From positions 62,001 through 126,000 of IMG/VR virus record IMGVR_UViG_3300047472_000155: a stretch of DNA of 64,000 nt. The stretch is one strand, 5' to 3'. The position numbers and the translations under genes were made by a program. Positions 10,909 to 62,890 of the stretch are shown in pieces. The DNA comes from a virus. The notes beneath the pieces are model-generated. The model had not been told where the DNA came from, did not search any database, and worked only from the letters and a program-made list of their open reading frames with translations. How positions within the stretch are numbered: the stretch's first letter is position 1; each line of letters opens with the position of its first letter.

Positions 10909-11076
10909 ATGAGTGCGTTCATGTATTACATTTTTTTTGGCGGTATGCTTACTATCGGTTCTTATTTTCTTGGAAGGTACGATGCTAATCGCATTAACGC
11001 CAAGAGATTAAAGAGAAAGAAAATTAAAGATGCCGAGTGGTTAAAAAAATGTCAAGATATAAAAATAGAGTCATAG
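10909..11076 (+). CDS. Single-pass membrane protein, 55 aa
   Basis: The ATG follows AGGGGTTG. Residues 4-22 (FMYYIFFGGMLTIGSYFL) form one membrane helix, followed by a strongly basic cytoplasmic tail. The stop lies inside palindrome copy 1. Confidence 0.65.
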   Translation: MSAFMYYIFFGGMLTIGSYFLGRYDANRINAKRLKRKKIKDAEWLKKCQDIKIES

Positions 11077-11097
11077 ATAAAACACATCTTTTATCTA
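11074..11097 (+). repeat. TAGATAAAA palindrome, copy 1
   Basis: TAGATAAAA (11074-11082), centre CACATC and TTTTATCTA (11089-11097). It lies between the gene at 10909 and the ribosome site of 11115. Confidence 0.85.
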
Positions 11098-11438: not shown

Positions 11439-11462
11439 TAGATAAAATCCGAGTTTTATCTA
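11439..11462 (+). repeat. TAGATAAAA palindrome, copy 2
   Basis: TAGATAAAA (11439-11447), centre TCCGAG and TTTTATCTA (11454-11462). It starts 3 nt after the previous stop. Confidence 0.85.
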
Positions 11463-12118: not shown

Positions 12119-12487
12119 ATGAAAGCAATAGTCAAAAAGCTTACAGATGAAACAAAATACAACTTTAGGAATGAATGCGTTGGATTACCATTCAAAGTAC
12201 TGAAATTTGAAGACAAACTTTTTGGTGGCTTGTATACGTTGGACACAACTGAACTATTGGGTTGTGTCACAGCTTGGAAAAGTGAATTCTTGAATCTATT
12301 CCAAGATATCAAATTGGAAGGGGAATTCAAAGATGCTGATTCTTTCCAAGGCATCGTTAAGTTGGATCATGATGCAAACTTTGCATCATGCTACATTGAA
12401 GGGTTTGACGGACAAGACTCATCTATATATTTGAATAAATTTCAAGGGAAAAACGTAGTTATGATCATTAAGGAAATTACTATATAA
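12119..12487 (+). CDS. TLDTTELLG family paralog B, 122 aa
   Basis: ATG 12119 follows AGGAGTGG. It shares KLTDETKYNFRNECV, TLDTTELLGC and AWKSEFL with the product at 11479, whose C-terminal half differs. The pair appears to have arisen by duplication with tail replacement. Function unknown. Confidence 0.7.
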   Translation: MKAIVKKLTDETKYNFRNECVGLPFKVLKFEDKLFGGLYTLDTTELLGCVTAWKSEFLNLFQDIKLEGEFKDADSFQGIVKLDHDANFASCYIEGFDGQDSSIYLNKFQGKNVVMIIKEITI

Positions 12488-12508
12488 ATAATAAGGGTGG
12501 TGTAAAAG

Positions 12509-12790
12509 ATGCCAATTAAAACAGGAAAAAGAATGAGCGCAGCAGAAGCTGTTGCCAATCATTTAGGTTGGGATATTGCTGATGTTAAAGATGCACGTTA
12601 TAAATATGGTCATACATCTACACCAGTGTTTACCTCAGAAGATTACTACTATTGTGCATCTAAAAGTGATGGCAAGCCAGCTACCCGCTATCTTGCAAAT
12701 GATAGTTGGGATTGGGTTCAATGTGTACCCAATAACCCATTGAATGACAAGGTTAAGTGGATTGTCTGGAAGGCACATATGAACAAGTAG
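12509..12790 (+). CDS. Unknown protein, 93 aa
   Basis: The ATG follows AAGGGTGG. Tryptophan- and tyrosine-rich (SWDWVQCVP, WIVWKAHM). It is probably a compact domain and no family is recognised. Confidence 0.65.
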   Translation: MPIKTGKRMSAAEAVANHLGWDIADVKDARYKYGHTSTPVFTSEDYYYCASKSDGKPATRYLANDSWDWVQCVPNNPLNDKVKWIVWKAHMNK

Positions 12791-12801
12791 GAGATGATAC
12801 C

Positions 12802-13083
12802 ATGATTGACAGCGGACTAACTACAATTGAAAATGCAAGAAATTTATTTGAATCATTTTACAAAGAAGAGTCAAATATTCTTATAAAGATCAAATTAAAA
12901 TGTTGGATCAATCATTCGGAAAGCAGACATAAAAACAACAACTATCCTTTTTCATATGGAAATTATTCTATGTTCTTAAAGGAAATTGATATGTTGCTAC
13001 AAGTTAATTATGACATGATTGATTGTAGCGATATTGGCGGTAAAGAGTATGTCATTGAGTTTTTGAAAAATAAAATAAAATAA
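12802..13083 (+). CDS. Unknown protein, 93 aa
   Basis: ATG 12802 follows TAGGAGATG. Soluble, mixed composition, no recognised motif. It is the middle gene of a closely spaced run from 12509 to 13376. Confidence 0.6.
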   Translation: MIDSGLTTIENARNLFESFYKEESNILIKIKLKCWINHSESRHKNNNYPFSYGNYSMFLKEIDMLLQVNYDMIDCSDIGGKEYVIEFLKNKIK

Positions 13084-13096
13084 GGAGGTTAATTTT

Positions 13097-13279
13097 ATGA
13101 AAATTAAGTTTCGTGAAATAAGTGTTAGAAGTGGTGATTATCACGTTTTGTTAGAAGCCTATAATGAAAATGGTGATCATGAATACGAGATATTCAACAG
13201 AACTTTGCCATTCCAAAACTTTCGAAGAGGTAGACTTATCAAGAAGTTAAAAAGAAAAATGGAACAGCTTTATTCATAA
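13097..13279 (+). CDS. Unknown small basic protein, 60 aa
   Basis: The ATG follows AAGGAGG. The C-terminus is strongly basic (RRGRLIKKLKRKM), which would suit nucleic-acid contact. Function unknown. Confidence 0.6.
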   Translation: MKIKFREISVRSGDYHVLLEAYNENGDHEYEIFNRTLPFQNFRRGRLIKKLKRKMEQLYS

Positions 13280-13292
13280 GGAGTGTAAGAAT

Positions 13293-13376
13293 ATGAATAT
13301 GTTGGCGATTATTATAATTTCAATGATAGCGTTGCTTATTGAACGCATCTCAATGAAAAATGACAATTTGCACTAA
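13293..13376 (+). CDS. Membrane microprotein, 27 aa
   Basis: ATG 13293 follows AAGGAGTG. Residues 2-16 (NMLAIIIISMIALLI) make one hydrophobic helix, then a short charged tail. The ribosome site and composition support translation. Confidence 0.5.
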   Translation: MNMLAIIIISMIALLIERISMKNDNLH

Positions 13377-13379
13377 TAA

Positions 13380-13391
13380 AATATAAAATAA
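13380..13391 (+). promoter_or_regulatory. ATATAAAAT motif, solo copy
   Basis: AATATAAAATAA lies 20 bp upstream of the -35 at 13411. Confidence 0.5.
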
Positions 13392-13410
13392 AAATTATTT
13401 TACCAGTTTT

Positions 13411-13439
13411 TTGACATCCCCGACAACTTGATATATACT
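13411..13439 (+). promoter_or_regulatory. SigA-type promoter
   Basis: TTGACA (13411-13416), a 17-bp spacer and TATACT (13434-13439), reading into the gene at 13473. Confidence 0.85.
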
Positions 13440-14895: not shown

Positions 14896-14954
14896 GAAAT
14901 CAACCAATAAACAAGTAAAATAAAAACAAAAAACGAAGGGTAAAGGTGATTATC

Positions 14955-16529
14955 ATGGCAAAGGGCGGCGCGGCAACAGTAAATGGATCAAGAAGAGGAC
15001 AGGGTGGCAAGACAACAACTCCACCAAGCGATTCTCAATTGACACTGGTTGACCAAGAAAAGGAATTGGAGCTTGATATTTTCCACAAAACAATGGGCAT
15101 TCGTTCTATTGTAGAACAAAGACGACTTATCAAGTTTGACATGGCGATTCAACGTAATGAAGTTTGGAAGGAAACAAAGGATGTGCATCAACAGTCACTC
15201 CTTATTGACTCCATTCTTCGGAAGTATCCAATTGGTCAAGTGTTCGTTATTCAAATGGGTGACGAATTCATGTGGATGGCTGATGGTAAACAACGTTGGA
15301 CAACAGTGTTCAAATTCATTGACAACAAATTCGCACTTGCCAAGGGTATTCGTCCCGTAAAGGCAAAGGATAACGAAACAGGCGAAGTCAAGGTGTACGA
15401 TATTGAAGGGAAATTCTTCAAAGACTTGGATAAAGTACTCCAATCAAAAATTATGGGGTACGAAATGGATGTCAAATTCCTCCAAAATGCTACACCAGCA
15501 GAGATTGAGGAAATCTTCCTTCGACTCAACAATGGTACACCATTGACCAAGATCGAATTAACACGTGTCGAACTTGGAGAGGTAAACATGATCAAAATTT
15601 CGGATATTGCCGAAAAACGTTTCTTCAAAACCATGTCATTCATTTCCGAAACGTCACGCAATCGCTTTATTGACCATGAAATGATCCTTCAAACGCTTAT
15701 GATCATTATGGACAGAGAATCCGGAATTTCAGGAAATGAAATCCGTGAATTTGCCAAGGCGATTAAGGTAAATGGCATTTCCGATGAAGTTATCAATGTT
15801 ATGAAAGGAACATCAGACTACCTTGCAGACGCATTCGAACAATTTGTTACGATTAAGGATGGCAAGGAAGAAATGCCATTCCTGAATAAAATGCTCAAAA
15901 AGGTTCATGTACCTATCATCTTTGCAACGGCTTATGAAGCCATCTATAAAGATGGAAGAGAGCTTGAGCCAGAAGTATTTGGATTGTGGGTGAAGTCATT
16001 CCTTGTCGACCGTAAAACTCCTATTGATTACAAGGACGCTACGGCAGGCGGTTCTGCTAAAAAGGATCAAGTCAATACTCGACTTCGTGAAATGAAAAAA
16101 GATTTCAAAAAGCACATTGAAAATGTGCAAAAAACATGGGAAGAAAATGAACCTATTCGTTTGAAGCTCAAACAAGATGCCGAAGAAGAGGCGGCACGAT
16201 TGGCGAAACTTGCAAACCCTGATGGTGATGGTGGAACTCATGAAAATGGTGGCAATGGTGAAGGTGATGGTGAAACGCCTCCTTCTGACTTGAATACACC
16301 TCCAAATGATACACCTCCAAGTGACGAAGAGGATAATACACCTCCTTCGGAAACTCCTCCAGTTGACGATGGAGAGAATGTTTCTTCCAATGATTCCAAT
16401 GATTCGAATGAAAATGGTGAAAATGGTAAAAACGGTGAAAGTGGAGAGCCTAATTCGGATAACGATGAAGGCACTGACAAGGACAAAGAACCGGAAAGCA
16501 ATGGTTCCGAAGATGGTTCCGAAGAATAA
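14955..16529 (+). CDS. DUF262 (ParB/Srx-fold) protein with acidic tail
   Basis: 524 aa, starting at ATG 14955 behind AAAGGTG. The N-terminal domain shows DUF262 signatures: FDMAIQRNEVW (about 60), DSILRKYPIG, MADGKQRW (about 107-114) and IFLRLNNGTPLT (about 190). DUF262 is the nucleotide-hydrolysing half of GmrSD-type modification-dependent restriction enzymes, but no HNH/DUF1524 half follows. Instead the last 105 residues are a disordered Pro/Gly/Asn/Asp/Glu tail with repeated TPPSD-like units. It forms a single-gene unit with promoter and terminator. It could be a solo defence or counter-defence factor, which is inference. Confidence 0.85.
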   Translation: MAKGGAATVNGSRRGQGGKTTTPPSDSQLTLVDQEKELELDIFHKTMGIRSIVEQRRLIKFDMAIQRNEVWKETKDVHQQSLLIDSILRKYPIGQVFVIQMGDEFMWMADGKQRWTTVFKFIDNKFALAKGIRPVKAKDNETGEVKVYDIEGKFFKDLDKVLQSKIMGYEMDVKFLQNATPAEIEEIFLRLNNGTPLTKIELTRVELGEVNMIKISDIAEKRFFKTMSFISETSRNRFIDHEMILQTLMIIMDRESGISGNEIREFAKAIKVNGISDEVINVMKGTSDYLADAFEQFVTIKDGKEEMPFLNKMLKKVHVPIIFATAYEAIYKDGRELEPEVFGLWVKSFLVDRKTPIDYKDATAGGSAKKDQVNTRLREMKKDFKKHIENVQKTWEENEPIRLKLKQDAEEEAARLAKLANPDGDGGTHENGGNGEGDGETPPSDLNTPPNDTPPSDEEDNTPPSETPPVDDGENVSSNDSNDSNENGENGKNGESGEPNSDNDEGTDKDKEPESNGSEDGSEE

Positions 16530-16589: not shown

Positions 16590-16618
16590 TTGACAAATAA
16601 TTTCAGGGATTTTATACT
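16590..16618 (+). promoter_or_regulatory. SigA-type promoter
   Basis: TTGACA (16590-16595), a 17-bp spacer and TATACT (16613-16618). A motif copy follows directly. Confidence 0.85.
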
Positions 16619-16624
16619 AAGTAA

Positions 16625-16637
16625 TAGATAAAATGAA
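16625..16637 (+). promoter_or_regulatory. TAGATAAAATGAA motif, solo copy
   Basis: It begins 7 nt after the -10 at 16613, so it would overlap the transcription start. It has the left arm of the palindrome but no right arm. Confidence 0.6.
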
Positions 16638-18472: not shown

Positions 18473-18790
18473 ATGCTAAAAGATAGTTGGTATATTAAGC
18501 AAAAAAGTTGCGGGAATGATGGAACAGATTGGCACTTTCAATGTTCTAAGGACGAAGATTACATGATTCTAGTTCTTGCACCTACAGAATCGGAAGCATG
18601 GAAAAAGCTAGGTGTGTTATTAAATGAAAATGTTGAGACAGAAGTTTTTGAAGGTGTTATAAGTTCATGTAGTTTTTCCAGTCTTGAAAGTGCATTTGTG
18701 ACATTTAAAGTAAGTCAAGATTGTGCAACATCCCTTCTTAAACTTATGAATAAGAAAGTCGATGTTCAGTTAAAATTAAGGGATAGATAA
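18473..18790 (+). CDS. MLK-W family paralog 4, 105 aa
   Basis: ATG 18473 follows AAAGGAGAG, only 5 nt after the previous paralog. It shares MLKDSW, DWHFQCSKDED, ILVLAPTESEAWKKLG and ETEVFEGVI with the copy at 11115, its closest relative. Palindrome copy 3 overlaps its stop. Function unknown. Confidence 0.7.
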   Translation: MLKDSWYIKQKSCGNDGTDWHFQCSKDEDYMILVLAPTESEAWKKLGVLLNENVETEVFEGVISSCSFSSLESAFVTFKVSQDCATSLLKLMNKKVDVQLKLRDR

Positions 18791-18807
18791 AAACTTACTT
18801 TTATCTA
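18784..18807 (+). repeat. TAGATAAAA palindrome, copy 3
   Basis: TAGATAAAA (18784-18792), centre ACTTAC and TTTTATCTA (18799-18807). The TAA inside the left arm is the stop of the preceding gene. Confidence 0.85.
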
Positions 18808-19859: not shown

Positions 19860-20171
19860 ATGGATAGAACGGTAATCGTATTAACTCCTACGGAGTGGGA
19901 AGATAGAAAGCCACTAGCTAAATGCCTTTCAGATGCATATCAGGAATTGCACTATACGAAATCAAGTGACTCATTGTTAGATGCCTTAATGCTATCGTTG
20001 TCTTTTAATCAAAAACAAGAGAATATGACCAAAGAAGAATTAATAGATGCAATAAATGAATTGCAAAGAATTAGAAAAGATATAATCTCTCATGTAAATA
20101 AAGCACAAACAATTATTGGAGCCATATCTACCGTAATTGACTATAAGGAAAGAACGGAAACAGTCTCCTAG
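19860..20171 (+). CDS. Unknown protein, 103 aa
   Basis: ATG 19860 follows AAGGCGGTG. An internal GTG at 19851 overlaps that site. Soluble and helical in the C-terminal half. The terminator begins inside its last codons. Confidence 0.6.
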   Translation: MDRTVIVLTPTEWEDRKPLAKCLSDAYQELHYTKSSDSLLDALMLSLSFNQKQENMTKEELIDAINELQRIRKDIISHVNKAQTIIGAISTVIDYKERTETVS

Positions 20172-20189
20172 ACTGTTTCTTTTTTTTGT
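20157..20189 (+). terminator. Rho-independent terminator overlapping a stop codon
   Basis: GAAACAGTCT (20157-20166) and its complement (20170-20179), loop CCT, followed by nine T. Confidence 0.9.
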
Positions 20190-20261
20190 TTATAGTCAAT
20201 GACACTTACAAGATAAAATCAAAAGATGTTACCAAATTGTGAAGTAAATAAATTCATGACT

Positions 20262-20348: not shown

Positions 20349-20377
20349 TTGACTTGTCCATAAGTGCAATATATAAT
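20349..20377 (+). promoter_or_regulatory. SigA-type promoter
   Basis: TTGACT (20349-20354), a 17-bp spacer and TATAAT (20372-20377). It drives the pair 20514-22294 with a leader of about 130 nt. Confidence 0.85.
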
Positions 20378-20513
20378 GAAAACATGAACACGAAAGAATT
20401 GTGCACAATATAAATGGTAAATCGGGTAATAATAATGTGATTAAAAAAGGAATGTTTTGGGTATAATTATCATAAGATAAGTACAAGATAAACGAAAGGA
20501 GATTGGACAAGTT

Positions 20514-21317
20514 ATGAAAAGTCAAATTGAATTGAAGAAAGTACTTAATGAAACGTTGGAAACTTACAAACATAATAAGAATGTTTTGGAAAATGTCAAA
20601 ACACTGATGCAGAATTTTGGAATATTTAGAGGTGAAACACAAAAGATATTTACAGGAAAGACACTTTTTGAGGACATGAACAAGAGAATACTCATATTGA
20701 TTACTGATTCATTGCATCGAAGTACAAATGTTCACAACCTCAATCCTTACGGATACTTTTCTGATAAGGAGATCAAGGAAGCAAAAGCTCAAGAAATTGT
20801 AATTGAAACTGAAACAAGTGAATTTCCCATCACAATACATAATGCTATCAAAAAAGCCGAAGACACTTTTATCGCATTTGTCAAGGCGAAAGACATTGTT
20901 GCTCTTTACAATTCCAATCTCTTAGGCTATAATTATAGAATAAGTAATCAATACAAGATGGTACAAAAAAACGGCAAGTTGATTCAGACAATTGATATCA
21001 ATACCAAAGATGTAAAAGACATTGCACAAAAGATACTAAATAACGTTTACAACATGAATACAATCATTTTAAATGTTTTAGTAAATTCAAGCTTCTCTAC
21101 CGGAAAAAATGAAATTGAATATTCAAATGACACATTGACAATCAATGAAAGTACTGTAGAAATTATTAGTGGACTTCATGATTTGAGCGCTCTTGCTTAC
21201 ATTCTTGAAGACAACAAGAATATTGAATTGAAGGTTGAACTAATGGTCAAACACTATAACTCAGAACAAATGATAAACTTTTACAATGAACTAAATATAA
21301 AGGGTGGTGTAAACTAA
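20514..21317 (+). CDS. Unknown protein upstream of recombinase-fold gene, 267 aa
   Basis: The ATG follows AAAGGAGATTGG. The product is soluble, helical in the first third, and rich in Asn/Lys/Ile, with no recognised motif. Its last base overlaps the next start, so it is co-translated with the recombinase-fold protein and probably works with it. Function unknown. Confidence 0.7.
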   Translation: MKSQIELKKVLNETLETYKHNKNVLENVKTLMQNFGIFRGETQKIFTGKTLFEDMNKRILILITDSLHRSTNVHNLNPYGYFSDKEIKEAKAQEIVIETETSEFPITIHNAIKKAEDTFIAFVKAKDIVALYNSNLLGYNYRISNQYKMVQKNGKLIQTIDINTKDVKDIAQKILNNVYNMNTIILNVLVNSSFSTGKNEIEYSNDTLTINESTVEIISGLHDLSALAYILEDNKNIELKVELMVKHYNSEQMINFYNELNIKGGVN

Positions 21318-22294
21318 TGGAAAAGCATGAACTCTACAATGAAGAAGTAAAAGAGGATTTCTTGTCACAGAAGCATTTTTCAGAAGGGACAAGAGTTGTC
21401 TATCGTAGAATCTTTGAAAAAAGCAGAGCCAATGAAGAAGTCCTGAACAAGGATTTGTATGACTTCACAAGACAAGAGATTGAAGAGGTTCTGCATGATC
21501 TTAATCCATTGACACCTCCAATATCTCAGTCCAATGGAAGAGTTATCAGCTCATACATTATTTGGTGGATAGACAAGAATAAGCTTAATAAAATCAATCC
21601 ATTGGAGGCAGTTGGTGCCGAATGGTTTGATAGATTCGTAGATAAAACCAAGAAACTTTATTTTTCATATAAGGAAATCAAAAGAATTGTCGATCTATGC
21701 GAGAATGCTCAAGATGCTGTAATACTTCTATCATACTTTGAGGACATTGGTGGCAAAGATGGAAGTGAAATCAGAAATTTAAAAATCACTGATTTAGATG
21801 AAGACCTTAACACAGTAATTTTACGTGAAAAAGGTAAGACTCCAAGAGTACATGTTATCAGTGATGAATTGAAAAAGCTTATCATCTCAGCATCCAAACA
21901 AAAGACTTACATCAAAAAGGATGGTAAGATGATTGAAATTGATAACATTCGTCCAGACATTGACTTGGTTGAAAACGAATATGTTGTCAGAAATTCTTTG
22001 ACACGCACAGATTCATTGAATTCACCAGTTCATTCGTCAGTAATTTATCGTAGAATGAAGACGTTGAGTGAGTCGTTTGGCTTTCCTTACTTGACAGGTA
22101 AAAATGTGTTGAGATCAGGAATAATCTACTTTGCCTGGAAACTTCTGCAACAAGAAGGAGCACTTGGTAAAGAACAATATGAAAAAATTGCAGAAAAATT
22201 TAGATTGAAAAACTGGTATACACTAAAGGATTTTTGCAACTATGAAACCATTGAGAAGTTATACGGTGAAGTTGCTGCTACAATAAGTGCATAA
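21317..22294 (+). CDS. Tyrosine-recombinase-fold protein, catalytic residues eroded
   Basis: 325 aa. The N-terminal 105 residues resemble a core-binding (SAM-like) domain. From about 110 the catalytic-domain layout is recognisable: ILLSYFEDIGGKDGSEIRNL where an integrase has the first Arg, ILREKGKTPRVHVI for the beta-hairpin Lys/Arg, LRSGIIYFAWKL for box II, and NWYTLKDF near the end. The first Arg appears to be replaced and the box II His is absent, so strand exchange is doubtful. The SPbeta master repressor MrpR (YopR) is, as I recall, a tyrosine-recombinase-fold protein of similar length that binds dispersed operators. A repressor role here is inference. Followed by a terminator. Confidence 0.7.
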   Translation: MEKHELYNEEVKEDFLSQKHFSEGTRVVYRRIFEKSRANEEVLNKDLYDFTRQEIEEVLHDLNPLTPPISQSNGRVISSYIIWWIDKNKLNKINPLEAVGAEWFDRFVDKTKKLYFSYKEIKRIVDLCENAQDAVILLSYFEDIGGKDGSEIRNLKITDLDEDLNTVILREKGKTPRVHVISDELKKLIISASKQKTYIKKDGKMIEIDNIRPDIDLVENEYVVRNSLTRTDSLNSPVHSSVIYRRMKTLSESFGFPYLTGKNVLRSGIIYFAWKLLQQEGALGKEQYEKIAEKFRLKNWYTLKDFCNYETIEKLYGEVAATISA

Positions 22295-22299
22295 AAAAC

Positions 22300-22341
22300 A
22301 CGTAAATTAAAAAGGGGTTGTTGCCTCTTTTTAATTTACGT
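22300..22341 (+). terminator. Long terminator hairpin
   Basis: An 18-bp stem 22300-22317 with 22324-22341 and one G-U pair, loop TTGTTG. The arms carry A- and T-runs, so it could act in both directions. Confidence 0.8.
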
Positions 22342-22376
22342 TCATTAATTTAAGGGGGTGGTATTATAGATAAGTG

Positions 22377-22390
22377 AAATATAAAATAAA
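22377..22390 (+). promoter_or_regulatory. ATATAAAAT motif, solo copy
   Basis: AAATATAAAATAAA, 135 bp upstream of the next promoter, right after the terminator of the recombinase-fold gene. Confidence 0.5.
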
Positions 22391-22524: not shown

Positions 22525-22553
22525 TTGACAAAGACAACCATTACCTCTATACT
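22525..22553 (+). promoter_or_regulatory. Consensus SigA-type promoter
   Basis: TTGACA (22525-22530), a 17-bp spacer and TATACT (22548-22553). It reads towards 22671. Confidence 0.85.
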
Positions 22554-22670: not shown

Positions 22671-23084
22671 ATGCAAAACAGAAAAAAAATTAAATCTATT
22701 TTTGACGGAATGGATTTGTGCTTGGAATTGGGGATTAATAAATCCAATATTCCTCTGTTACATTCCCTTATATCCTCTTTAGAGGAGTTCGATGACTTTA
22801 TCACGAATTTTTGGGGGCAAAGCGAATGTCAAGGATTTGACATTGCTAATTTTCGTGCATACAAGTTAAATAAAATGAAAGTTAGCTTTACCCGACTAGA
22901 ACAAGTGTTCGGTCAAAATCCACAGCTTGCACTCGAAGAATTGACACAAAGACCTGTACACAAAAACACCACAAATGAAATAGTAAATGGTATTGCTAAT
23001 GGTAAATTTACCCTTATGACAATATTCGACAAATTTATGAGCAATAAAGATTTAAGCTTGTCAAGAATACTACTTGACATCTAA
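22671..23084 (+). CDS. Unknown helical protein, 137 aa
   Basis: The ATG follows GGGAGGAATAG. A monocistronic unit behind a strong promoter and ahead of a terminator-like hairpin. The helical sequence has no DNA-binding motif I can name. Its position makes it a candidate regulator. Confidence 0.65.
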   Translation: MQNRKKIKSIFDGMDLCLELGINKSNIPLLHSLISSLEEFDDFITNFWGQSECQGFDIANFRAYKLNKMKVSFTRLEQVFGQNPQLALEELTQRPVHKNTTNEIVNGIANGKFTLMTIFDKFMSNKDLSLSRILLDI

Positions 23085-23478: not shown

Positions 23479-24327
23479 ATGAATGAAGATTTTGTTAAAG
23501 ATTTTATTGCTTGCAATCAAGAAGTGACTTTACAAAAAGACGATACGGTTGATGATAAATTTGTTGACAAAATGTTAAATGTAAAAGCATATGTAGTGAA
23601 TGAAATGGCTACAGGAGATTTTGAAAAATTGGTGGACATCTTATTTAAAGAAGATATAAGTCCATTGTCATTAAATGATTCATATTTTGCTTCTTATAAG
23701 ATGTCAAAATTGGGGTACGGAAATTTCGGAAATGTTTATGAATTTGTTGGAAGTGATGGATACAGTTATGCAGTAAAAATTGCACGATTTGAAAAAGATA
23801 ATTACAGTGAACATGATGCAACTATTTTGTCAAAATTGCAGTCCATTAAAGGATACAATAAATTATTCTGTTACTTTGAAGGAACCTGCACATATGACTC
23901 ATGGGGAAATGTAAGAAAAAGAGATTTCCTTATAATGGTATCGAAAAAAGTGTATGGGTTTAGAATATCTGATGCCTTGAGAAATGAATTTTGCAAAAGA
24001 AACTTCTTTGACAACATTGGACCAGAAGTGATACAAGAGTTTCAAAAAACAATAAAAGAAACTTATTTAAATGGATATTTTCCAGATGATATTCATAGCG
24101 AAAATGTAATGGTGGATATGGATGAAAAGCAGGTTGTGATTGTTGATGTGGGATGCTATACACAGACAGAAGTAAAAGACGATATTTCAGAAGAAATGGT
24201 AAAAGATAAGGTATATGCATCAAGATTAATTGATCTGTGCGGACAATCAAATATTTTTTGTCGAGATGGTCAAAAATATCATGTGGAGGTGAAAACTAAA
24301 AATGACAGAGAAACTTATAAGTTTTAA
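23479..24327 (+). CDS. Eukaryote-like protein kinase, copy 1
   Basis: 282 aa. The ATG follows GAGGAGG. Kinase motifs in order: glycine loop LGYGNFGNVYEFVG (about 78), invariant Lys in YAVKIARF (about 100), catalytic loop PDDIHSENVMVD (about 202-213) and VDVG in place of DFG (about 222). The catalytic Asp, the Asn and the metal-binding Asp all appear present, so activity is plausible. The first 70 residues match the N-terminus of copy 2 (GDFEKLVDIL). The kinase lobe is short. It might act on host proteins or on a small molecule, as aminoglycoside-kinase relatives do. Confidence 0.8.
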   Translation: MNEDFVKDFIACNQEVTLQKDDTVDDKFVDKMLNVKAYVVNEMATGDFEKLVDILFKEDISPLSLNDSYFASYKMSKLGYGNFGNVYEFVGSDGYSYAVKIARFEKDNYSEHDATILSKLQSIKGYNKLFCYFEGTCTYDSWGNVRKRDFLIMVSKKVYGFRISDALRNEFCKRNFFDNIGPEVIQEFQKTIKETYLNGYFPDDIHSENVMVDMDEKQVVIVDVGCYTQTEVKDDISEEMVKDKVYASRLIDLCGQSNIFCRDGQKYHVEVKTKNDRETYKF

Positions 24328-25003
24328 AGTTACTACTCTCAATGGAATGGCGGATGGCGATTTTCAAAGATTACTTGCAATATTAATTGATGAAAAAGAA
24401 GGCATAACTTTCCACTCTCAGCATTGGGACATGGAACAAAGAGGATTAAAGCGTCTTGGTTTTGGTTGCTATGGTGATGTATATGAATTTATCGGAAGTA
24501 ATGGATATGAATATGCTGTTAAAATTTGTTCTTTTAAAAATAGTGCTCTTCAACACGATGGTGAAATTCTATCAAAACTTCAAGGAATTGTTGGATTTCC
24601 AAAACTATTCCTATATATTGATGGTGAATCCGAGACATCAGATTTCATGATAATGGTGTCACAGAAAATAAATGGTTTCACTATAGCAAAAATAGTTAAT
24701 CCTTGGAACGCTGATAAAATTTTGGTTCAACAATTCAAGGATACATTTGAGCCAGAAATTTTGAAGATATTTAATCAAACAATTCGTTCCTCATTCGCAA
24801 GAGGTTTACGTCCTGACGATGTTCATATTGAGAATGTAATGTATGATATCAACGAAAAAATCTTCTATGTTGTTGATGTAGGGAAATTTACAAATACAAA
24901 ATTCACAGAAGTTAGAGACAATGATATTTCAAGTTATAGAAATAACGCTAGAATCAGTGATCTTTTGCATATGGTAAATTATAAAAAAGAGGTGCTTGCA
25001 TAA
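24302..25003 (+). CDS. Eukaryote-like protein kinase, copy 2
   Basis: 233 aa. It overlaps copy 1 by 26 nt with its own GTGGAGGTG site. It repeats the plan: GDFQRLLAIL, LGFGCYGDVYEF (about 51), YAVKICSF (about 74), RPDDVHIENVMYD (about 169) and VVDVG (about 190). All core catalytic residues are visible. The two proteins are clear tandem duplicates that have diverged outside the motifs, suggesting different targets or a pair acting together. Confidence 0.8.
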   Translation: MTEKLISFKVTTLNGMADGDFQRLLAILIDEKEGITFHSQHWDMEQRGLKRLGFGCYGDVYEFIGSNGYEYAVKICSFKNSALQHDGEILSKLQGIVGFPKLFLYIDGESETSDFMIMVSQKINGFTIAKIVNPWNADKILVQQFKDTFEPEILKIFNQTIRSSFARGLRPDDVHIENVMYDINEKIFYVVDVGKFTNTKFTEVRDNDISSYRNNARISDLLHMVNYKKEVLA

Positions 25004-25387: not shown

Positions 25388-25421
25388 ATATATAACAAAC
25401 GAGAGGAAAGTGAACCGATCA

Positions 25422-25868
25422 ATGAATATCAAACAACAAGTCAAGGAAAATATTGTAAAGGCAATGAAGGAGAAGAATACTAAGCAACGCGACTTTCAAC
25501 GTATGTTGATGGATCGAATTCAGAAAAAAGAAAAGGAATTTCAGCGTGACATTACGGATGATGAAATTGTTGTATTGTTCCGCACATTCAAAAAGCAAAT
25601 TGAAGAAGAAGCATTTGCATATTTCCAATCTGGAAATGTAGTTAGACATGATGAATTGGTTCAAGATATCTCAGTGTTGTTTGCATATCTTCCACGTGAA
25701 ATGAGTGGAGAAGAGATTAAACATCTTGCGTCCACGGTTGTTAGCCAACTTGAAGGTCAAGGCGTATCTCCAAACAAGGGAAATGTCATGAAGTTGATCA
25801 TGCCTATGGTCAAGGGTAAGGCTGACAATAAACTCGTCATGGATATTGTGAATAGCATTTTTGCCTAA
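25422..25868 (+). CDS. YqeY/GatB-like domain protein
   Basis: 148 aa from ATG 25422. A GTG at 25410 is closer to GAGAGG and also possible. It matches the YqeY family: VKENIVKAMKEKN, RDFQRMLMDRI, LFAYLPREMSGEEI, and KGNVMKLIMPMVKGKAD with D, I and V to the end. YqeY is related to the tail domain of GatB, which contacts tRNA in the amidotransferase. The role of free YqeY is not established. A phage copy next to NAD and tRNA-repair genes is suggestive. Confidence 0.85.
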   Translation: MNIKQQVKENIVKAMKEKNTKQRDFQRMLMDRIQKKEKEFQRDITDDEIVVLFRTFKKQIEEEAFAYFQSGNVVRHDELVQDISVLFAYLPREMSGEEIKHLASTVVSQLEGQGVSPNKGNVMKLIMPMVKGKADNKLVMDIVNSIFA

Positions 25869-27064: not shown

Positions 27065-28104
27065 TGAAGACAGGTTTAATTCTAGGCAAATTCATGCCTT
27101 TACATCTAGGGCATGAATACCTTATCAATACAGGACTAACAGCATGTGATGTGCTTCATGTTGTTGTATGTAGCCTATCAAGTGAACCGATTGATGGAAA
27201 TTTGCGTTACGAGTGGGTTAAACATAGATTTTGTCAAGAAATTTTGAAGGGACGCATTGTTGTTCATCACCTCAAAGAAGATTGGATGCCACAAGAACCA
27301 AGTGATTGCATCTCTGAGGAAGCTTTCTTTGGATGTTGGGCGGGTGTAATGGAGTCTTTGTGTAATACTAAGTTTGACGTTATGTTCGCATCAGAAATGT
27401 ATATACATCGTATGTCAAATCAACTTAATTGCACTCCTATTCTTGTTGACCTTGAGCGTAAGAATGTTCCTATTAGTGGAACAATGGTTCGTGACAATCC
27501 AATTGGAAATTGGAAGTTTATTAACAGGAATGTAAAAAAGTATTTTGCAAAGCGTGTACTCATTATTGGCGGTGAAAGCACCGGAAAGTCAATTATGACT
27601 CAAATGCTTGACGAATATTACGAAGACAAAGGTTATCTTACTTATGGTTCTCAAGAATATGCTAGAGATTATATTGACCAAGTTTATAATGGTAATATGG
27701 AAAAGTTAACATTTGACGACATCACACATTTTGGTCAATCACAAATGAGAGATGTTGATAGCGCTATACAAAGTGGATTCCAAATTGTATTTTCTGACAC
27801 GGACGCTATTGTGTCTAAGGTATTTCAACAAACATACTACGGAAAGACATCTCCTGAACTTGATGAAGTCATTGACAAAGAACAATGGGATTTGGTTCTA
27901 TTCCTTGAAAACGATGTACCATGGGTTGATGATGGTCAACGTAATCTTGGAGAGAAGAAGCAAAGAGAATTATTCCAACATAAACTCTACGTTGAAGTAT
28001 ATAACAAAAAGAAAATGCGTAATATCGTGTTTATTAACGGAGATTGGGAACAACGATTTGAAAAGGCAAAAAAATCTGTTGACAAGTTGCTTCAACTAAT
28101 GTAA
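27064..28104 (+). CDS. nadR: NadR-like NMN adenylyltransferase / ribosylnicotinamide kinase
   Basis: 346 aa. ATG 27064 follows GGAGGA. The N-terminal domain has the nucleotidyltransferase motif GKFMPLHLGH (8-17) and ISGTMVRDNP (about 135) and should join NMN and ATP to NAD+. The C-terminal domain has the P-loop GGESTGKS (about 169-176) and should phosphorylate nicotinamide riboside to NMN. The N-terminal repressor domain of enterobacterial NadR is absent, so this is a pure enzyme. With PnuC it gives a two-step route from imported riboside to NAD+. Phage homologues are known, for example in KVP40. Confidence 0.93.
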   Translation: MKTGLILGKFMPLHLGHEYLINTGLTACDVLHVVVCSLSSEPIDGNLRYEWVKHRFCQEILKGRIVVHHLKEDWMPQEPSDCISEEAFFGCWAGVMESLCNTKFDVMFASEMYIHRMSNQLNCTPILVDLERKNVPISGTMVRDNPIGNWKFINRNVKKYFAKRVLIIGGESTGKSIMTQMLDEYYEDKGYLTYGSQEYARDYIDQVYNGNMEKLTFDDITHFGQSQMRDVDSAIQSGFQIVFSDTDAIVSKVFQQTYYGKTSPELDEVIDKEQWDLVLFLENDVPWVDDGQRNLGEKKQRELFQHKLYVEVYNKKKMRNIVFINGDWEQRFEKAKKSVDKLLQLM

Positions 28105-28116
28105 GATAAAATGAAA
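28098..28116 (+). promoter_or_regulatory. AATGTAAGATAAAATGAAA motif, solo copy
   Basis: A full-length copy overlapping the last codons of nadR, ahead of the gene at 28140. No -35 is visible. Confidence 0.6.
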
Positions 28117-38061: not shown

Positions 38062-38289
38062 ATGAGCATAATGAATATAGCAGATATCGTTTTTGAGCAA
38101 ACACATGACTTTAAATTCATTATTAGAAAAAGCAAAGTAAGTAATGTTGGTCATACGTGTAGTTCAGGTGTGGTAGAAGATGCATTTAATAGTTGGGTAT
38201 ATAGAGTTTTGATAATTGATTCAGAAAACAATATTTTATCAGATAACAAGGTGGAACGAAAAGGAATTGCAAAAATACTGGATAGATAA
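38062..38289 (+). CDS. Unknown small protein, 75 aa
   Basis: ATG 38062 is better spaced from AAAGGAA than ATG 38053. Two cysteines, no zinc pattern. Palindrome copy 4 overlaps its stop, as with the gene at 18473. Confidence 0.6.
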   Translation: MSIMNIADIVFEQTHDFKFIIRKSKVSNVGHTCSSGVVEDAFNSWVYRVLIIDSENNILSDNKVERKGIAKILDR

Positions 38290-38308
38290 AACCAAACTTT
38301 TATCTATC
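38281..38308 (+). repeat. TAGATAAAA palindrome, copy 4
   Basis: Extended 11-bp arms GATAGATAAAA (38281-38291) and TTTTATCTATC (38298-38308), centre CCAAAC. Confidence 0.85.
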
Positions 38309-38651: not shown

Positions 38652-38955
38652 AAAAGGTGATAAAGTAAGACCAATAGCAAAGACTGTAGGAATGTCTTGG
38701 GAAAATTGTTGTGCTAAAGCCGAAATGGAAAGACTAAATCAAGATTTCCTTTATATTACCCGCGATTATCTAAACAATAGGTTTGGCTGCAATGTTATGG
38801 ATTGTGATGGTGTTTTGAGCGAATTTGCTTTTAGTGATCTTGAGCCATATGAAGAGTATCCAAATCTCATAAAAATAAACAGAGATGTGTTACTTGAATT
38901 GTTGCAAAAAGACATTTTCAAGGAAGATATTCGGTTTTACGTGTCTAAGCCATAG
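38644..38955 (+). CDS. GDKVxP-family paralog, 103 aa
   Basis: ATG 38644 follows GGAGATG. MYKKGDKVRP, AEMERLNQDFLYI and LEPYEEYP match the product at 59728 (MYKLGDKVVP, KSNYQEFLYV, LTPYIE). The N-terminus looks like a small SH3-like barrel. Palindrome copy 5 overlaps its stop. Confidence 0.7.
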   Translation: MYKKGDKVRPIAKTVGMSWENCCAKAEMERLNQDFLYITRDYLNNRFGCNVMDCDGVLSEFAFSDLEPYEEYPNLIKINRDVLLELLQKDIFKEDIRFYVSKP

Positions 38956-38978
38956 ATAAAATGTGAATTTTATCTATG
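38951..38978 (+). repeat. TAGATAAAA palindrome, copy 5
   Basis: Arms CATAGATAAAA (38951-38961) and TTTTATCTATG (38968-38978), centre TGTGAA. Confidence 0.85.
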
Positions 38979-41122: not shown

Positions 41123-41132
41123 TATAAGGAGA

Positions 41133-41148
41133 GTGAAAGATAAAATCA
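41133..41148 (+). promoter_or_regulatory. GTGAAAGATAAAATCA motif, solo copy
   Basis: Just upstream of the terminator that closes the 34.9-41.1 kb gene run. Confidence 0.5.
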
Positions 41149-41236: not shown

Positions 41237-41265
41237 TTGACAAGTGGCAGATAAAATGATATAAT
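41237..41265 (+). promoter_or_regulatory. Composite promoter with motif in spacer
   Basis: TTGACA (41237-41242), a 17-bp spacer that ends in GCAGATAAAATGA, and TATAAT (41260-41265). It drives the SSB-like gene. A further copy of the motif (41301-41320) precedes the ribosome site. Confidence 0.9.
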
Positions 41266-43613: not shown

Positions 43614-43634
43614 TATGGTAAGAGTGGTTGTACG

Positions 43635-43653
43635 AATGAAAGATAAAATGAAA
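43635..43653 (+). promoter_or_regulatory. AATGAAAGATAAAATGAAA motif
   Basis: Full copy in the 93-nt gap before the lytic transglycosylase gene. No -35 seen at the right distance. Confidence 0.6.
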
Positions 43654-44516: not shown

Positions 44517-45066
44517 AGTAGGAGAATTAATAACAATTAAAGAAGATTCATTTGATGATATAAAAAAATGTTATAGATTTGAAAAATGGAGCGATAAATT
44601 GCAATTTTTAACAAAAAAATCAAAGTTTGAAATTAAAAAGCACTACGGAGAAGATGATGTTATTGTATATAATTTCGAAGTTTCTTCTGTGGATTATCCC
44701 GAAGTTGTAATTGCTCTTAAAGGCATGGAAATAAATGATCTTTTAAATCAAGATGAAGTTAGCACTTATGAGCAAAAAGGCAAGGAACTTGGTGCGCTTG
44801 TTGATCGTAAACAAGCCGCATACGGTAACGCGATAACTCAAACTTACGAAGTTGTCAAAGCTTTTATGACTCCATACTACAATGAAGATGATAAGACTTA
44901 CACAATTCCTCAAAGCCTATTACAACACCTTTTGTTGCAAGTACGGATAATCGACAAACAAAATCGAATTTTCAATAATCCCGATTTTGACCTTATGGAC
45001 GAAAGTCCGTATTCTGATCTTGGTGGTTACGGCTTACTTGGTAGCAATATGGTTATTGACAAATAG
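44509..45066 (+). CDS. Conserved unknown phage protein, 185 aa
   Basis: TTG 44509 follows AGAGGGGAAAAGG and overlaps the previous stop. ATG 44491 is an alternative. The middle has GKELGALVDRKQAAYGNAI, the phrase of a widespread siphophage family, then LLQVRIIDKQNRIF. In that family the same order (AYG, then R-I-DK-RI) is usual, and the function is unknown to me. A terminator follows. Confidence 0.75.
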   Translation: MSRVGELITIKEDSFDDIKKCYRFEKWSDKLQFLTKKSKFEIKKHYGEDDVIVYNFEVSSVDYPEVVIALKGMEINDLLNQDEVSTYEQKGKELGALVDRKQAAYGNAITQTYEVVKAFMTPYYNEDDKTYTIPQSLLQHLLLQVRIIDKQNRIFNNPDFDLMDESPYSDLGGYGLLGSNMVIDK

Positions 45067-45080
45067 AATATAAAATGAAA
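45064..45080 (+). promoter_or_regulatory. TAGAATATAAAATGAAA motif
   Basis: It includes the stop codon of the gene at 44509 and lies before the terminator at 45094. Confidence 0.55.
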
Positions 45081-45093
45081 TTGCACACATTTG

Positions 45094-45137
45094 ATGCCTA
45101 CTATTCGTAAATACTGATAGTAGGCATTGCTTTTTAT
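45094..45137 (+). terminator. Rho-independent terminator
   Basis: ATGCCTACTAT (45094-45104) and its exact complement (45117-45127), 12-nt loop, then TGCTTTTTAT. Confidence 0.88.
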
Positions 45138-45139
45138 CC

Positions 45140-45168
45140 TTGACAAATGAAAGATAAAGTGATATACT
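45140..45168 (+). promoter_or_regulatory. Composite promoter with motif in spacer
   Basis: TTGACA (45140-45145), spacer AATGAAAGATAAAGTGA (17 bp) and TATACT (45163-45168). It follows a terminator directly. Confidence 0.9.
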
Positions 45169-45210
45169 ATATACATTAAGAGCCGGATAGAAATTACAGG
45201 GAGGTAATAA

Positions 45211-45519
45211 ATGGATAAACCATCTTTTATTGTAGGAGAACCATATTTAGATTATTTTGATGTTATGAAATATTTACAAGAAAAATACGAGTTCACGCAT
45301 AGCGAAAAAAGACATTTTTGGAAATGGATTTTAGATGATTCAATGAATGATGTTCATAATGGATGTTTTATTTATCTTCCCATATATAATTTTCATGAAA
45401 GATATTACATTCAAGACATTGAAAAATTTAACGATGATCATCCAATTGTTGTTGAAATTATCAACATGTTATGGAACGAATATGGCAAAGAAGATTTGAA
45501 GTTTTATGTGTCTTGGTAA
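45211..45519 (+). CDS. Unknown protein, 102 aa
   Basis: The ATG follows GGGAGG, 43 nt after a consensus promoter. Aromatic-rich and acidic (FWKWILDD, FHERYYIQDIEKF). No family recognised. Confidence 0.65.
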   Translation: MDKPSFIVGEPYLDYFDVMKYLQEKYEFTHSEKRHFWKWILDDSMNDVHNGCFIYLPIYNFHERYYIQDIEKFNDDHPIVVEIINMLWNEYGKEDLKFYVSW

Positions 45520-45546
45520 ATTAAAGTATGCGAAGGAGACATTAAA

Positions 45547-45753
45547 ATGGAAGAATACATTGAATTATGGACTTGTCATAATGGAATTCAATTATTGAGT
45601 AATAAAAAATTCTTTTGGGCAACTGATAAAAAAGGTAATGAATGTAAGTTTCCTGTTGAGGTTCAAAAAGAATTTGTAGAAAAGTTTACTGACAATTATC
45701 ACATTAATCCTAAAGGTGTAAAAGAGATTTGTGACTATACGAATGTAAGATAA
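45547..45753 (+). CDS. Unknown small protein, 68 aa
   Basis: The ATG follows GAAGGAGAC. Compact mixed composition. A motif copy overlaps its last codons. Function unknown. Confidence 0.6.
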   Translation: MEEYIELWTCHNGIQLLSNKKFFWATDKKGNECKFPVEVQKEFVEKFTDNYHINPKGVKEICDYTNVR

Positions 45754-45760
45754 AATAAAA
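45742..45760 (+). promoter_or_regulatory. AATGTAAGATAAAATAAAA motif
   Basis: It includes the stop of the gene at 45547 and abuts the AAAGGAG site of 45775. Confidence 0.6.
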
Positions 45761-45774
45761 AAGGAGATGTAATT

Positions 45775-46119: not shown

Positions 46120-46136
46120 AAGGGGAATAAAAAAAC

Positions 46137-46600: not shown

Positions 46601-48100
46601 ATGGCAACTGCAACAATTGATATGGTTGGAGTTTCCTTCCTTCGAGATGGGGCAAATGGTTGGTATACTGATGCAATAATTTGTCTTTGCTCATGTGGAA
46701 GAAGATTCAATTCAACCAAAGATAAAAAAGAGTCATTAACATGTGAATGTGGAAATAAATATTTTAAATTAATAAGTCGTCCATCGAAAAATGTCAAAAC
46801 AAATATAGGCGGTATTTTTGAATGCACTGAAAGTACAAACAACTCTTTCAAGATCAAGAAAACGGAATTGATCGCAAATATTGTTGTTGATGAAGAAAAA
46901 AGCAGTTATTATCGTAAAGCGGATGACTTTGCAGTAACATTTTCTACCGCGAAAGAGTACACATTAGACTACTCTCTTAGAGATAAGAGATATGATGTAT
47001 ATTGTGGAGATAAATTGCTTGAAAAAGATGGCAAAGATAAAGATTTGTTTTTTAGAGGAAAGATTGATAAAAATGAATTGTTGGATTGTATTGACAATGA
47101 AGCATTGAAATATATTCTTAAATTTGCATTTGATTATCTTGGCAAAGTAAGAGATCAAAAAATAAAAAAATGGTCAATAGCACTTGAAAGACTATTCAAA
47201 AATCCTTATATTGAATTGCTCAATAATTGTGGACTAGGAAGACATTTGGGCTATATTTACCAAAGATACAATTATTACGGAAATTTAAAAATGATTGAAG
47301 GTTTTACCAAGCCTCATGAATTCTTTCAAGTTCCCAAATATATGATGAAATATATAAAAGAAATACAAAGTGTAAGTGATCAAATGCTAAATGCTTTTAG
47401 AAATTTTGATAAAACATTTGATAGCAATAAATTCCAAGTTATTATGCAAATTTTCAAAGAGGAAAGCACTCTTGATATTTTGTATAATAATAGTTCAATT
47501 ATAACTGAATTGTATTCAAAATATGGATACAAAGACATCAAAAAGCTTGCCATATATGTAACTAGAGATGCAAAGCTTCAACAAGGTATTATGCGTCCAA
47601 CAGAAGCACTTACACTTCTTAGAGACTATGCTAAAATGTCTACCAATATGGAAATTCCTTATGATAAATTTCCAAAGTCTCTTAAGAAGGAACATGATGT
47701 CACTGCAATGAACTATAAAGTAGTAGAAAATGAAATGAAGAATAAGGAGTTTAGCCAGGCAATAGGGCTTTATGAGTCATTAGCATATACAACTAAGAAA
47801 GATTTATACGAAATAATTCTTCCAACTTCCGCATCAGATTTAGTTAAAGAAGGAAGTGCTTTAAATCATTGTATAGCCTCATATGTTGACAACGTAATCG
47901 CAGGATCATGTCAAATCGTATTTTTAAGATGGAAAGAAGATATTGATAAACCATTCATATCTATTGAGATAAGAGATGGGAATATCCGTCAAGCACGTGG
48001 TCAATCGAATAAAAGCATAACTAATGAATATTATGAAGAACCACATGAATTTTTTGTCAAGTGGGCTGAAAAGAATGAGTTGCAAATAAATCTTTGGTGA
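46601..48100 (+). CDS. PcfJ-like domain protein
   Basis: 499 aa. The ATG follows AGAGTGGAAGG. Residues 20-50 hold CSCGRRF and CECGNKYF, a zinc ribbon. The C-terminal part, from about 400, reads EGSALNHCIASYVDNV, FLRWKEDIDKPFISIEI and QARGQSNK, as in PcfJ proteins of conjugative plasmids and phages. PcfJ was first named in the pCF10 transfer region. Its biochemical activity is not known to me. The middle is long and helical. Confidence 0.82.
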   Translation: MATATIDMVGVSFLRDGANGWYTDAIICLCSCGRRFNSTKDKKESLTCECGNKYFKLISRPSKNVKTNIGGIFECTESTNNSFKIKKTELIANIVVDEEKSSYYRKADDFAVTFSTAKEYTLDYSLRDKRYDVYCGDKLLEKDGKDKDLFFRGKIDKNELLDCIDNEALKYILKFAFDYLGKVRDQKIKKWSIALERLFKNPYIELLNNCGLGRHLGYIYQRYNYYGNLKMIEGFTKPHEFFQVPKYMMKYIKEIQSVSDQMLNAFRNFDKTFDSNKFQVIMQIFKEESTLDILYNNSSIITELYSKYGYKDIKKLAIYVTRDAKLQQGIMRPTEALTLLRDYAKMSTNMEIPYDKFPKSLKKEHDVTAMNYKVVENEMKNKEFSQAIGLYESLAYTTKKDLYEIILPTSASDLVKEGSALNHCIASYVDNVIAGSCQIVFLRWKEDIDKPFISIEIRDGNIRQARGQSNKSITNEYYEEPHEFFVKWAEKNELQINLW

Positions 48101-48121
48101 CAAATGCAAGATAAAATGAAA
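48100..48121 (+). promoter_or_regulatory. ACAAATGCAAGATAAAATGA motif
   Basis: One of the best copies, starting at the stop codon of the PcfJ-like gene and running into the ribosome site of the methyltransferase gene. Confidence 0.65.
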
Positions 48122-48132
48122 GGCGGTTTAGT

Positions 48133-49934: not shown

Positions 49935-49952
49935 CAATTGGAGGGCATTATA

Positions 49953-50192: not shown

Positions 50193-50206
50193 TCATCATC
50201 AATATA
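50172..50206 (+). repeat. Hairpin over a stop codon
   Basis: A perfect 14-bp stem TATATTGATGATGA (50172-50185) with its complement (50193-50206), 7-nt loop holding the stop. No T-run, so perhaps an mRNA end structure. Confidence 0.7.
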
Positions 50207-50207
50207 G

Positions 50208-50225: not shown

Positions 50226-50226
50226 G

Positions 50227-50697: not shown

Positions 50698-50709
50698 AGG
50701 GAGATGATT

Positions 50710-51351: not shown

Positions 51352-51602
51352 TGGCAAAAGTGTTCGGTAGTGGTGCAAGCTCAAAGGTAAATAGTGCAAG
51401 AAAACAAGCTGTTAGTGCATTGGGTTTGTTTGCAAAGGCAAACGCGAAACTTCAAAAAGCTAATGAGAAATTGTTGAAGACGGAAGATGAGGCTAGACAA
51501 GAAGCGGAAGCATTGATCCAAGAGGCAACCCGCGCAAGAGCAGAACGAGAGTCAAATCAACTTGTTCAAGAAAAGTTGAAAGACTTTATTCCTCAAGTAT
51601 AA
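51351..51602 (+). CDS. Coiled-coil protein, 83 aa
   Basis: The ATG overlaps the previous stop. After a Ser/Gly-rich start the sequence is one long Ala/Glu/Lys coiled coil. Translationally coupled, probably a structural or scaffold partner. Confidence 0.65.
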   Translation: MAKVFGSGASSKVNSARKQAVSALGLFAKANAKLQKANEKLLKTEDEARQEAEALIQEATRARAERESNQLVQEKLKDFIPQV

Positions 51603-51618
51603 ATGAAAGATAAAATGA
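51602..51618 (+). promoter_or_regulatory. AATGAAAGATAAAATGA motif
   Basis: It starts at the last base of the previous stop and runs into the left arm of the hairpin at 51617. Confidence 0.55.
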
Positions 51619-55997: not shown

Positions 55998-56026
55998 TTG
56001 ACAAATAGAAGATAAAATGATATAAT
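55998..56026 (+). promoter_or_regulatory. Composite promoter with motif in spacer
   Basis: TTGACA (55998-56003), spacer AATAGAAGATAAAATGA (17 bp) and TATAAT (56021-56026). It drives the primase pair. Confidence 0.92.
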
Positions 56027-62583: not shown

Positions 62584-62612
62584 TTGACAAATAGAAGATA
62601 AAATGATATGAT
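62584..62612 (+). promoter_or_regulatory. Composite promoter with motif in spacer
   Basis: TTGACA (62584-62589), spacer AATAGAAGATAAAATGA (17 bp, identical to the one at 55998) and TATGAT (62607-62612). Confidence 0.9.
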
Positions 62613-62861: not shown

Positions 62862-62890
62862 TTGACAAATGTAAGATAAAATGATACAAT
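62862..62890 (+). promoter_or_regulatory. Composite promoter with motif in spacer
   Basis: TTGACA (62862-62867), spacer AATGTAAGATAAAATGA (17 bp) and TACAAT (62885-62890). Confidence 0.9.

Follow-up and report, generated by a model that had tools for sequence, protein, structure and literature searches.

We have analyzed a stretch of 64,000 nucleotides (the window), corresponding to positions 62001–126000 of a virus record of 166,838 bp (G000). The gene of interest, mrpR in what follows, codes for a protein of 325 aa, and a sequence-only reading had described it as an eroded tyrosine recombinase and candidate master regulator. It is preceded by a YopQ-like gene, the last codon of which (a stop) runs into the ATG of mrpR (TAATG), and the gene order is that of yopQ-yopR in SPbeta. 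Orthologues of the yopQ-like gene are located immediately 5' of mrpR in G001 and G002, two IMG/VR relatives of G000 (G002 was found by a search from a four-sequence alignment), and are missing in some members of the family, e.g., PJN02. Neither the YopQ-like protein nor the product of the ORF at 22671–23084 gave a significant sequence match in the PDB. The gene had been said to sit between strong promoters with palindromes. Strong promoter-like sequences were indeed found on both sides, but the adjoining palindromes are intrinsic terminators (Table 1). The same operon promoter, with a repeated element in the same register, is present in G001 (at 60541), and the copy of this element over the −10 box in the window, ATAAGTGCAATATATAATGA, is a candidate autoregulatory operator of the mrpR operon.

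Downstream of mrpR we found two tandem paralogous kinase-like genes (23479–24327 and 24302–25003; PHROG 18305), the first of which also matches Pfam Pkinase (1.3e-7), and a gene for a YqeY-like protein (25410–25868; PF09424, 1e-22), related to tRNA-amidotransferase domains and unusual in a phage. Elsewhere in the window, a 527-aa ORF (14946–16529) has a DUF262-like N-terminal half and a long acidic C-terminal tail rich in Pro and Asn.

Table 1. Features of the mrpR operon, element copies and N6-centred palindromes (window positions unless marked G000; PWM, score of the element).
Feature	Position	Strand	Details
Intrinsic terminator of the preceding operon (palindrome)	20156..20180	+	
Weaker element copy 5' of the operon	20202..20221	+	PWM 14.3 bits
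Probable promoter of the yopQ-mrpR operon	20349..20377	+	TTGACT-17-TATAAT, 11/12
Element over the −10 of the operon promoter	20360..20379	+	ATAAGTGCAATATATAATGA, PWM ~18 bits
YopQ-like gene	20514..21317	+	267 aa; PHROG 5732 1.3e-39; tblastn YopQ 5.6e-12
MrpR/SroF-family (predicted) repressor gene	21317..22294	+	325 aa; core-binding domain ~6–85, degenerate catalytic domain ~115–318
Intrinsic terminator 3' of mrpR (second palindrome)	22300..22341	+	
Element copy downstream of mrpR	22370..22389	+	PWM 20.1 bits
Promoter-like sequence upstream of ORF 22671–23084	22525..22553	+	TTGACA-17-TATACT, 11/12; without element
Element copy with exact AGATAAAATGA	16617..16636	+	17 bits
Class 2 element between adjoining genes	28095..28114	+	24 bits
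Class 2 element overlapping the upstream stop codon	33054..33073	+	26 bits; 15 nt before next ATG
Weaker promoter-free element between gene end and terminator hairpin	41129..41148	+	
Class 1 promoter, element as 17-bp spacer	41237..41265	+	element 41240–41259
Class 2 element	43632..43651	+	27.5 bits
Promoterless element just 3' of a stop codon	45059..45078	+	directly 5' of an intrinsic terminator
Class 1 promoter/operator (predicted)	45140..45168	+	element 45143–45162; −10 TATACT
Class 2 element between adjoining genes	48100..48119	+	29.8 bits
Class 2 element between adjoining genes	51599..51618	+	26 bits; then T-rich hairpin
Class 1 promoter/operator (predicted)	55998..56026	+	element 56001–56020
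Class 1 promoter/operator (predicted)	62584..62612	+	element 62587–62606; −10 TATGAT
Class 1 promoter/operator (predicted)	62862..62890	+	element 62865–62884; −10 TACAAT
Palindromes ATAGATAAAA-N6-TTTTATCTAT in the window	11074–11097, 11439–11462, 18784–18807, 38283–38306, 38953–38976, 59681–59704, 60087–60110		
Palindromes ATAGATAAAA-N6-TTTTATCTAT elsewhere	G000: 14920, 30995, 149479		

Family, fold and active site of the 325-aa protein

The protein matches both Pfam domains of MrpR, MrpR_N_CB (PF22822, 5.8e-25, 88 bits) and MrpR_C_cat (PF22823, 1e-12, 49 bits), well above the cutoff of 27 bits that applies to each, and the generic Phage_integrase model merely at 0.016. PHROG 5830 matches it at 1.4e-83, and its sequence matches in the PDB are SroF (1.6e-30) and MrpR (9e-28). 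The AlphaFold (AF2) model has a pLDDT of 90. Its top structural match is the DNA-bound SroF of phage phi3T (9RD5; Z 31.0, 2.4 A over 310 residues), followed by SPbeta YopR/MrpR (Z 27–28) and only then by XerA (14.9) and Cre (13.6), so that the structure comparison proposed with the original reading places the protein nearest to SroF and MrpR, ahead of ordinary recombinases. Homologues were found in 46 phage records, with identities of 40% in KKP_3916 (Alicyclobacillus), 34–36% in the Bacillus phages 136, FADO and PJN02 and 28% in SPbeta (YopR/MrpR); the IMG/VR relatives G001 and G002 have proteins with 71% and 51% identity. We have little hesitation in assigning the protein to the MrpR/SroF family, an assignment that is close to certain, and the relation to tyrosine recombinases is real. 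Relatives with 35–36% identity also appear in the bacterial assemblies of Shimazuella kribbensis and Shimazuella alba (in the latter on a contig of 163 kb), and related phages may reside in Shimazuella as prophages.

The active site was assigned by sequence alignment, using family alignments together with the MrpR residues tabulated in PMC10516654. The first catalytic Arg is replaced by Asp148 (GGKDGSE in place of the TGLRxSE of active enzymes) and the box II His by Lys262/Asn263, the two losses that had been suspected from the sequence. The nucleophilic Tyr (Tyr304 of SPbeta MrpR) is gone as well, with Phe306 at its position. Glu151, the second Arg (Arg266) and probably the hairpin Lys (Lys172) are kept. 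The catalytic set of active enzymes, R-(D/E)-K-H-R-(H/W)-Y, is incomplete. The same Phe is found in G001, 136, PJN02, E3, Sundance and Perkons; SPbeta and KKP_3916 retain the Tyr. Judging from these alignments, the protein is catalytically dead and cannot be a normal tyrosine recombinase.

We have considered nevertheless that it might be a working tyrosine recombinase (an integrase or a dimer resolvase), in line with the annotation of its Tyrovirus homologues. The fold is of the Cre/Xer type (Z 13–15), the homologues are labelled integrase or recombinase in databases, and three recombinases have been claimed for Tyroviruses (PMC9703825). However, three catalytic residues have been substituted (Arg I, the His of box II and the Tyr nucleophile), most of the aligned relatives carry Phe at the Tyr position, the closest solved structures are repressors, and G000 encodes two further tyrosine recombinases (12456–13433 and 47342–48436) that retain most of the catalytic set. 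An active enzyme is extremely improbable; on the aligned residues, the missing nucleophile refutes it in practice.

The repeated element and its probable reader

The dispersed AGATAAAATGA sites had been proposed as targets of the protein. With at most one mismatch, AGATAAAATGA appears 39 times in the window (8.2 expected), always on the + strand, and it is the core of an asymmetric element of 20 bp, ACAAATGNAAGATAAAATGA (21 bits). Above a threshold of 13 bits, the whole of G000 holds 99 sites, where a Markov model predicts ~2; above 11 bits the count rises to 106 (5–8 expected). Intergenic copies are co-directional with the downstream gene in 74 of 80 cases. Two classes were distinguished. In class 1 (22 strict sites, pattern TTGACAAATGaAAGATAAAATGgTATAATA) the element is itself the spacer between the −35 and −10 boxes of a sigma-A promoter. 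Class 2 comprises 56 sites, 41 of them intergenic, and a logo of 120 bp around them shows the element alone; they lie 10–60 nt 5' of a start codon, often touching the stop codon of the preceding gene, and the intergenic ones are oriented with transcription in 37 of 41 cases. A few copies cover a −10 box, one of them in the promoter of the mrpR operon. Most sites are conserved at the homologous place in G001 (20/22 of class 1 and 36/52 of the class 2 sites that could be mapped, against 4% in the null), with 89% identity between both genomes within the element and 81% beside it. A scan of IMG/VR for the exact element recovered the relative G001 alone, and its distribution therefore cannot be mapped by exact match. 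We also considered that AGATAAAATGA could be a bare −10 box, which was ruled out since class 1 promoters have a separate TATAAT after the word, which lies in the spacer. A signal at the RNA level is disfavoured, as the class 1 copies share the full word 5' of the transcription start.

In SPbeta, MrpR occupies the SPBRE sequence by ChAP-seq and binds it in vitro (PMC10516654). We recovered SPBRE de novo from the MrpR-bound promoters as gACAAATACAAATAATATGTATATAAT, an asymmetric sequence located in the promoter spacer. The G000 element has the same spacer register and a similar word, and like SPBRE it is repeated at many promoters, 22 of which have it as spacer. A related element is a leading de novo motif in G001, PJN02 (ACAAaTGATACAAATAATGATATAA), KKP_3916 (ACAAatgCAaCAATAAGT) and G003 (ACAAGTGTAAAAAATAATGAA). 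A repeated asymmetric element was also found de novo in Sundance, and phage 136 has one in the same spacer register, there one of several repeats and ranked below a palindrome. E3, the Staphylococcus SPbeta-like phage and G010 carry MrpR relatives and gave no clear comparable element de novo, and the motif obtained with the Perkons seed was in the wrong orientation and is not trusted. Over 36 pairs from nine phages the cross-enrichment of the elements tracks the identity of the MrpR proteins (rho 0.75, a correlation confounded by genome kinship), and in SPO1, used as the phage without MrpR, the element is not enriched.

These data suggest that the G000 element is very probably the operator of the MrpR-type protein. 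Another of the numerous small DNA-binding proteins found in large phages could read the element, with MrpR binding elsewhere. We find this improbable. The register is that of SPBRE, which is bound by MrpR in vivo and in vitro (PMC10516654), and the word is similar, the element co-varies with MrpR, it lies over the promoter of the mrpR operon in both G000 and G001, and 20 bp without symmetry suit a clamp of two domains. The AGATAAAATGA sites can be kept as candidate targets of the protein; they are enriched, and the element of which they form the core sits in promoters as SPBRE does.

The original proposal can be refined in two respects. The candidate target is asymmetric and would act as a single site. 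The palindromic version belongs to a separate family and is probably not the main target of the repressor. These palindromes, ATAGATAAAA-N6-TTTTATCTAT, number ten in G000 and ten in G001 (0–1 in shuffled sequences) and were found in none of 14 other MrpR phages. They are always intergenic, mostly shortly 5' of a gene start, and some pairs flank one or two small genes. The N6 centre is unique to each locus, yet conserved between G000 and G001 (95%, with 100% in the arms and 50–57% in the flanks). By sequence, they look like core sites of a tyrosine recombinase with locus-specific overlaps. We tentatively suggest that the operator of the repressor derives from a half-site of these palindromes, which may themselves still serve an active recombinase of the phage; the only support for this is the shared AGATAAAA. 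A second type of repeated operator was observed in PJN02, 136, KKP_3916, G002 and G003, made of palindromes, many of them centred on TTGACA, e.g., TAAATCCGTTGACAACGGATTTA (34 copies in PJN02), TATCTgTTGACAAcAGATA (about 70 in phage 136) and AATTGTTtCACGTGgAACAATT (27 in G002). They are possibly the targets of a second repressor, which would act at −35 boxes.

Promoterless copies of the element

About 33 intergenic copies are oriented with transcription and have no promoter above background. Many asymmetric sites outside promoters that follow the direction of transcription are what would characterize stoperators, and by analogy class 2 sites could act in this way, halting the elongating polymerase, a reading that we hold only tentatively. 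The elements at 45059 and, more weakly, at 41129 lie between the end of a gene and a terminator, with a class 1 promoter following. Sites so placed cannot usefully be promoters; at 45059 the intrinsic terminator follows directly. Hairpins after the sites are not in significant excess (11/41 in class 2 against 3/22 in class 1).

It is also conceivable, if rather unlikely, that MrpR works at promoters only and that class 2 is a second class of promoters, with the element inside a phage-specific promoter or providing an internal −10 (TAAAAT/TATAAA). Eight of the 41 intergenic class 2 sites in G000 score at least 11.5 as sigma-A promoters, mostly with an internal −10, class 2 regions outscore control genes (p=0.0007), and many of the sites lie 10–40 nt 5' of a start codon. 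Against this, −35 boxes are not in significant excess over a flank-swapped null in G000 (p=0.14; p=0.04 in G001), no other conserved block appears within 50 bp on either side, several sites abut intrinsic terminators, a position in which a promoter would serve no purpose, and YonO, the RNA polymerase that we searched for, has no homologue in G000 (tblastn, 1e-3). Altogether, 5–8 of the 41 sites, including that of the mrpR operon, do look promoter-like, in a second register that places the −10 within the element, and for the rest the sequences mostly reject ordinary promoters. Since roughly one in four class 2 sites scores as a promoter, our count of the promoterless class may be too high. In SPbeta the ChAP-seq peaks of MrpR are in promoter regions only (PMC10516654), and SPbeta therefore gives no support to a block of elongation. 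We still prefer stoperators for the promoterless sites, at the tentative level given above.

Lineage, proposed mechanism and known systems

With a genome of 166,838 bp, within the 160–170 kb of the Tyroviruses, and three homologues of tyrosine recombinases (mrpR and the two mentioned above; one of the three is in the tail module), G000 shows a trait of this group. It shares just 49–52 of 181 proteins with PJN02 and 136, not above the 48 shared with Sundance, and falls outside the tight gene-content cluster of the Tyroviruses. Based on this sharing we therefore name it a sister lineage, and not a member, of the group. No serine recombinase was found in G000, and neither were homologues of AimR, YosL or YonO (tblastn), the arbitrium receptor and the other SPbeta switch genes that were searched for being absent from the matches. 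Outside the window, G000 has a gene of the TubZ/FtsZ family (45073–46194; PF00091, 1.2e-12), common to G000, G001, G002 and G007. The small ORF that precedes it (44785–45069) may be TubR, and both likely form a plasmid-partition module. A recombinase gene lies nearby, as does a gene for a putative antirepressor of the BRO type (49889–50782 of G000). A plasmid-prophage state has been proposed for Tyroviruses (PMC9703825). Because of this proposal and of the TubZ/FtsZ-family gene, we suggest that the prophage of G000 may be plasmid-like and silenced by the MrpR-type repressor.

From the computed family, fold, dead active site, element, site classes, orientation and conservation we infer a model in which the protein would bind the element and repress. 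It appears likely, with good though not full confidence, that this is a master repressor of the MrpR/SroF type, derived from a dead recombinase and acting on an asymmetric 20-bp operator found at three kinds of sites. The protein would be a monomeric clamp that places its two domains on one asymmetric site, ACAAATGNAAGATAAAATGA, in effect half of a recombination core site, and the single element ACAAATGCAAGATAAAATGA would be its predicted target. At ~22 promoters, where the element is the −35/−10 spacer, binding would exclude the sigma-A polymerase of the host. At a few others, among them the promoter of its own yopQ-mrpR operon, the element lies over the −10 and autoregulation is expected. 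At the ~33 promoterless intergenic sites, arranged along transcription, the bound repressor would probably stop the elongating polymerase. The three kinds of sites together would keep most lytic operons silent in the lysogen, which would probably be maintained as a plasmid. The proposal of an MrpR-like regulator is thus supported by family, modelled fold, lost catalytic residues and dispersed candidate sites. The larger claim, that a dead tyrosine recombinase was turned into a monomeric elongation roadblock through dozens of directional, promoter-free stoperators, convergent with the L5 repressor and widespread in MrpR phages, is one that we put forward as possible, slightly on the doubtful side.

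In 2023, MrpR was reportedly presented as an isolated, unusual example of a recombinase that had become a repressor. Our comparison suggests that many large phages of Firmicutes have a protein of this type, together with a repeated, directional operator of their own. Genome sequences could then reveal the specificity of repressor and operator, and groups of superinfection immunity would be predictable.

Among known systems, SPbeta MrpR (YopR; PDB 8A0A/8BPZ) resembles the G000 protein over its full length (28% identity), with two domains, a dead active site, YopQ as operon partner and an asymmetric operator in the promoter spacer. In contrast, it keeps the Tyr where the G000 protein has Phe, it has 10 ChAP-seq peaks against about 100 predicted sites in G000, many of them promoterless, and SPbeta carries arbitrium genes and a serine integrase (SprA), neither of which we found in G000. 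SroF of phi3T (PDB 9RD5, a complex with DNA; 9RGL, a complex with the antirepressor Sar) is the best structural match and provides the DNA-bound arrangement of the domains, although its identity to the G000 protein is only 29%. A third relative is gp175, counted as the third, Xer-type recombinase of Tyroviruses (136, PJN02, FADO) (PMC9703825). We draw the link through the homologues in 136 and PJN02 (34–36% identical), phages listed as Tyroviruses, and not through Tsamsa (KC481682). From these sequences the recombinase label of gp175 is probably wrong and gp175 would be an MrpR-type repressor; the missing repressor of the Tyroviruses may well be this supposed third tyrosine recombinase.

The repressors of cluster A mycobacteriophages (L5 gp71, TipsytheTRex) are monomers that use two DNA-binding domains to hold an asymmetric site, and they stop elongation in one orientation of that site (PMC9283540; PMC6550527). 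Their stoperators, 20–30 sites mostly in short intergenic gaps, run along transcription, with some in promoters, as in G000. Unlike the G000 protein, they combine a helix-turn-helix with a stoperator domain, and the block of elongation is experimental there and predicted here. Searches of the 325-aa protein in Pfam, PDB sequences and structures gave no homology to L5 gp71, and the resemblance is one of analogy only. An independent origin of elongation-blocking stoperators outside mycobacteriophages would, with the sites of G000 at hand, become directly testable.
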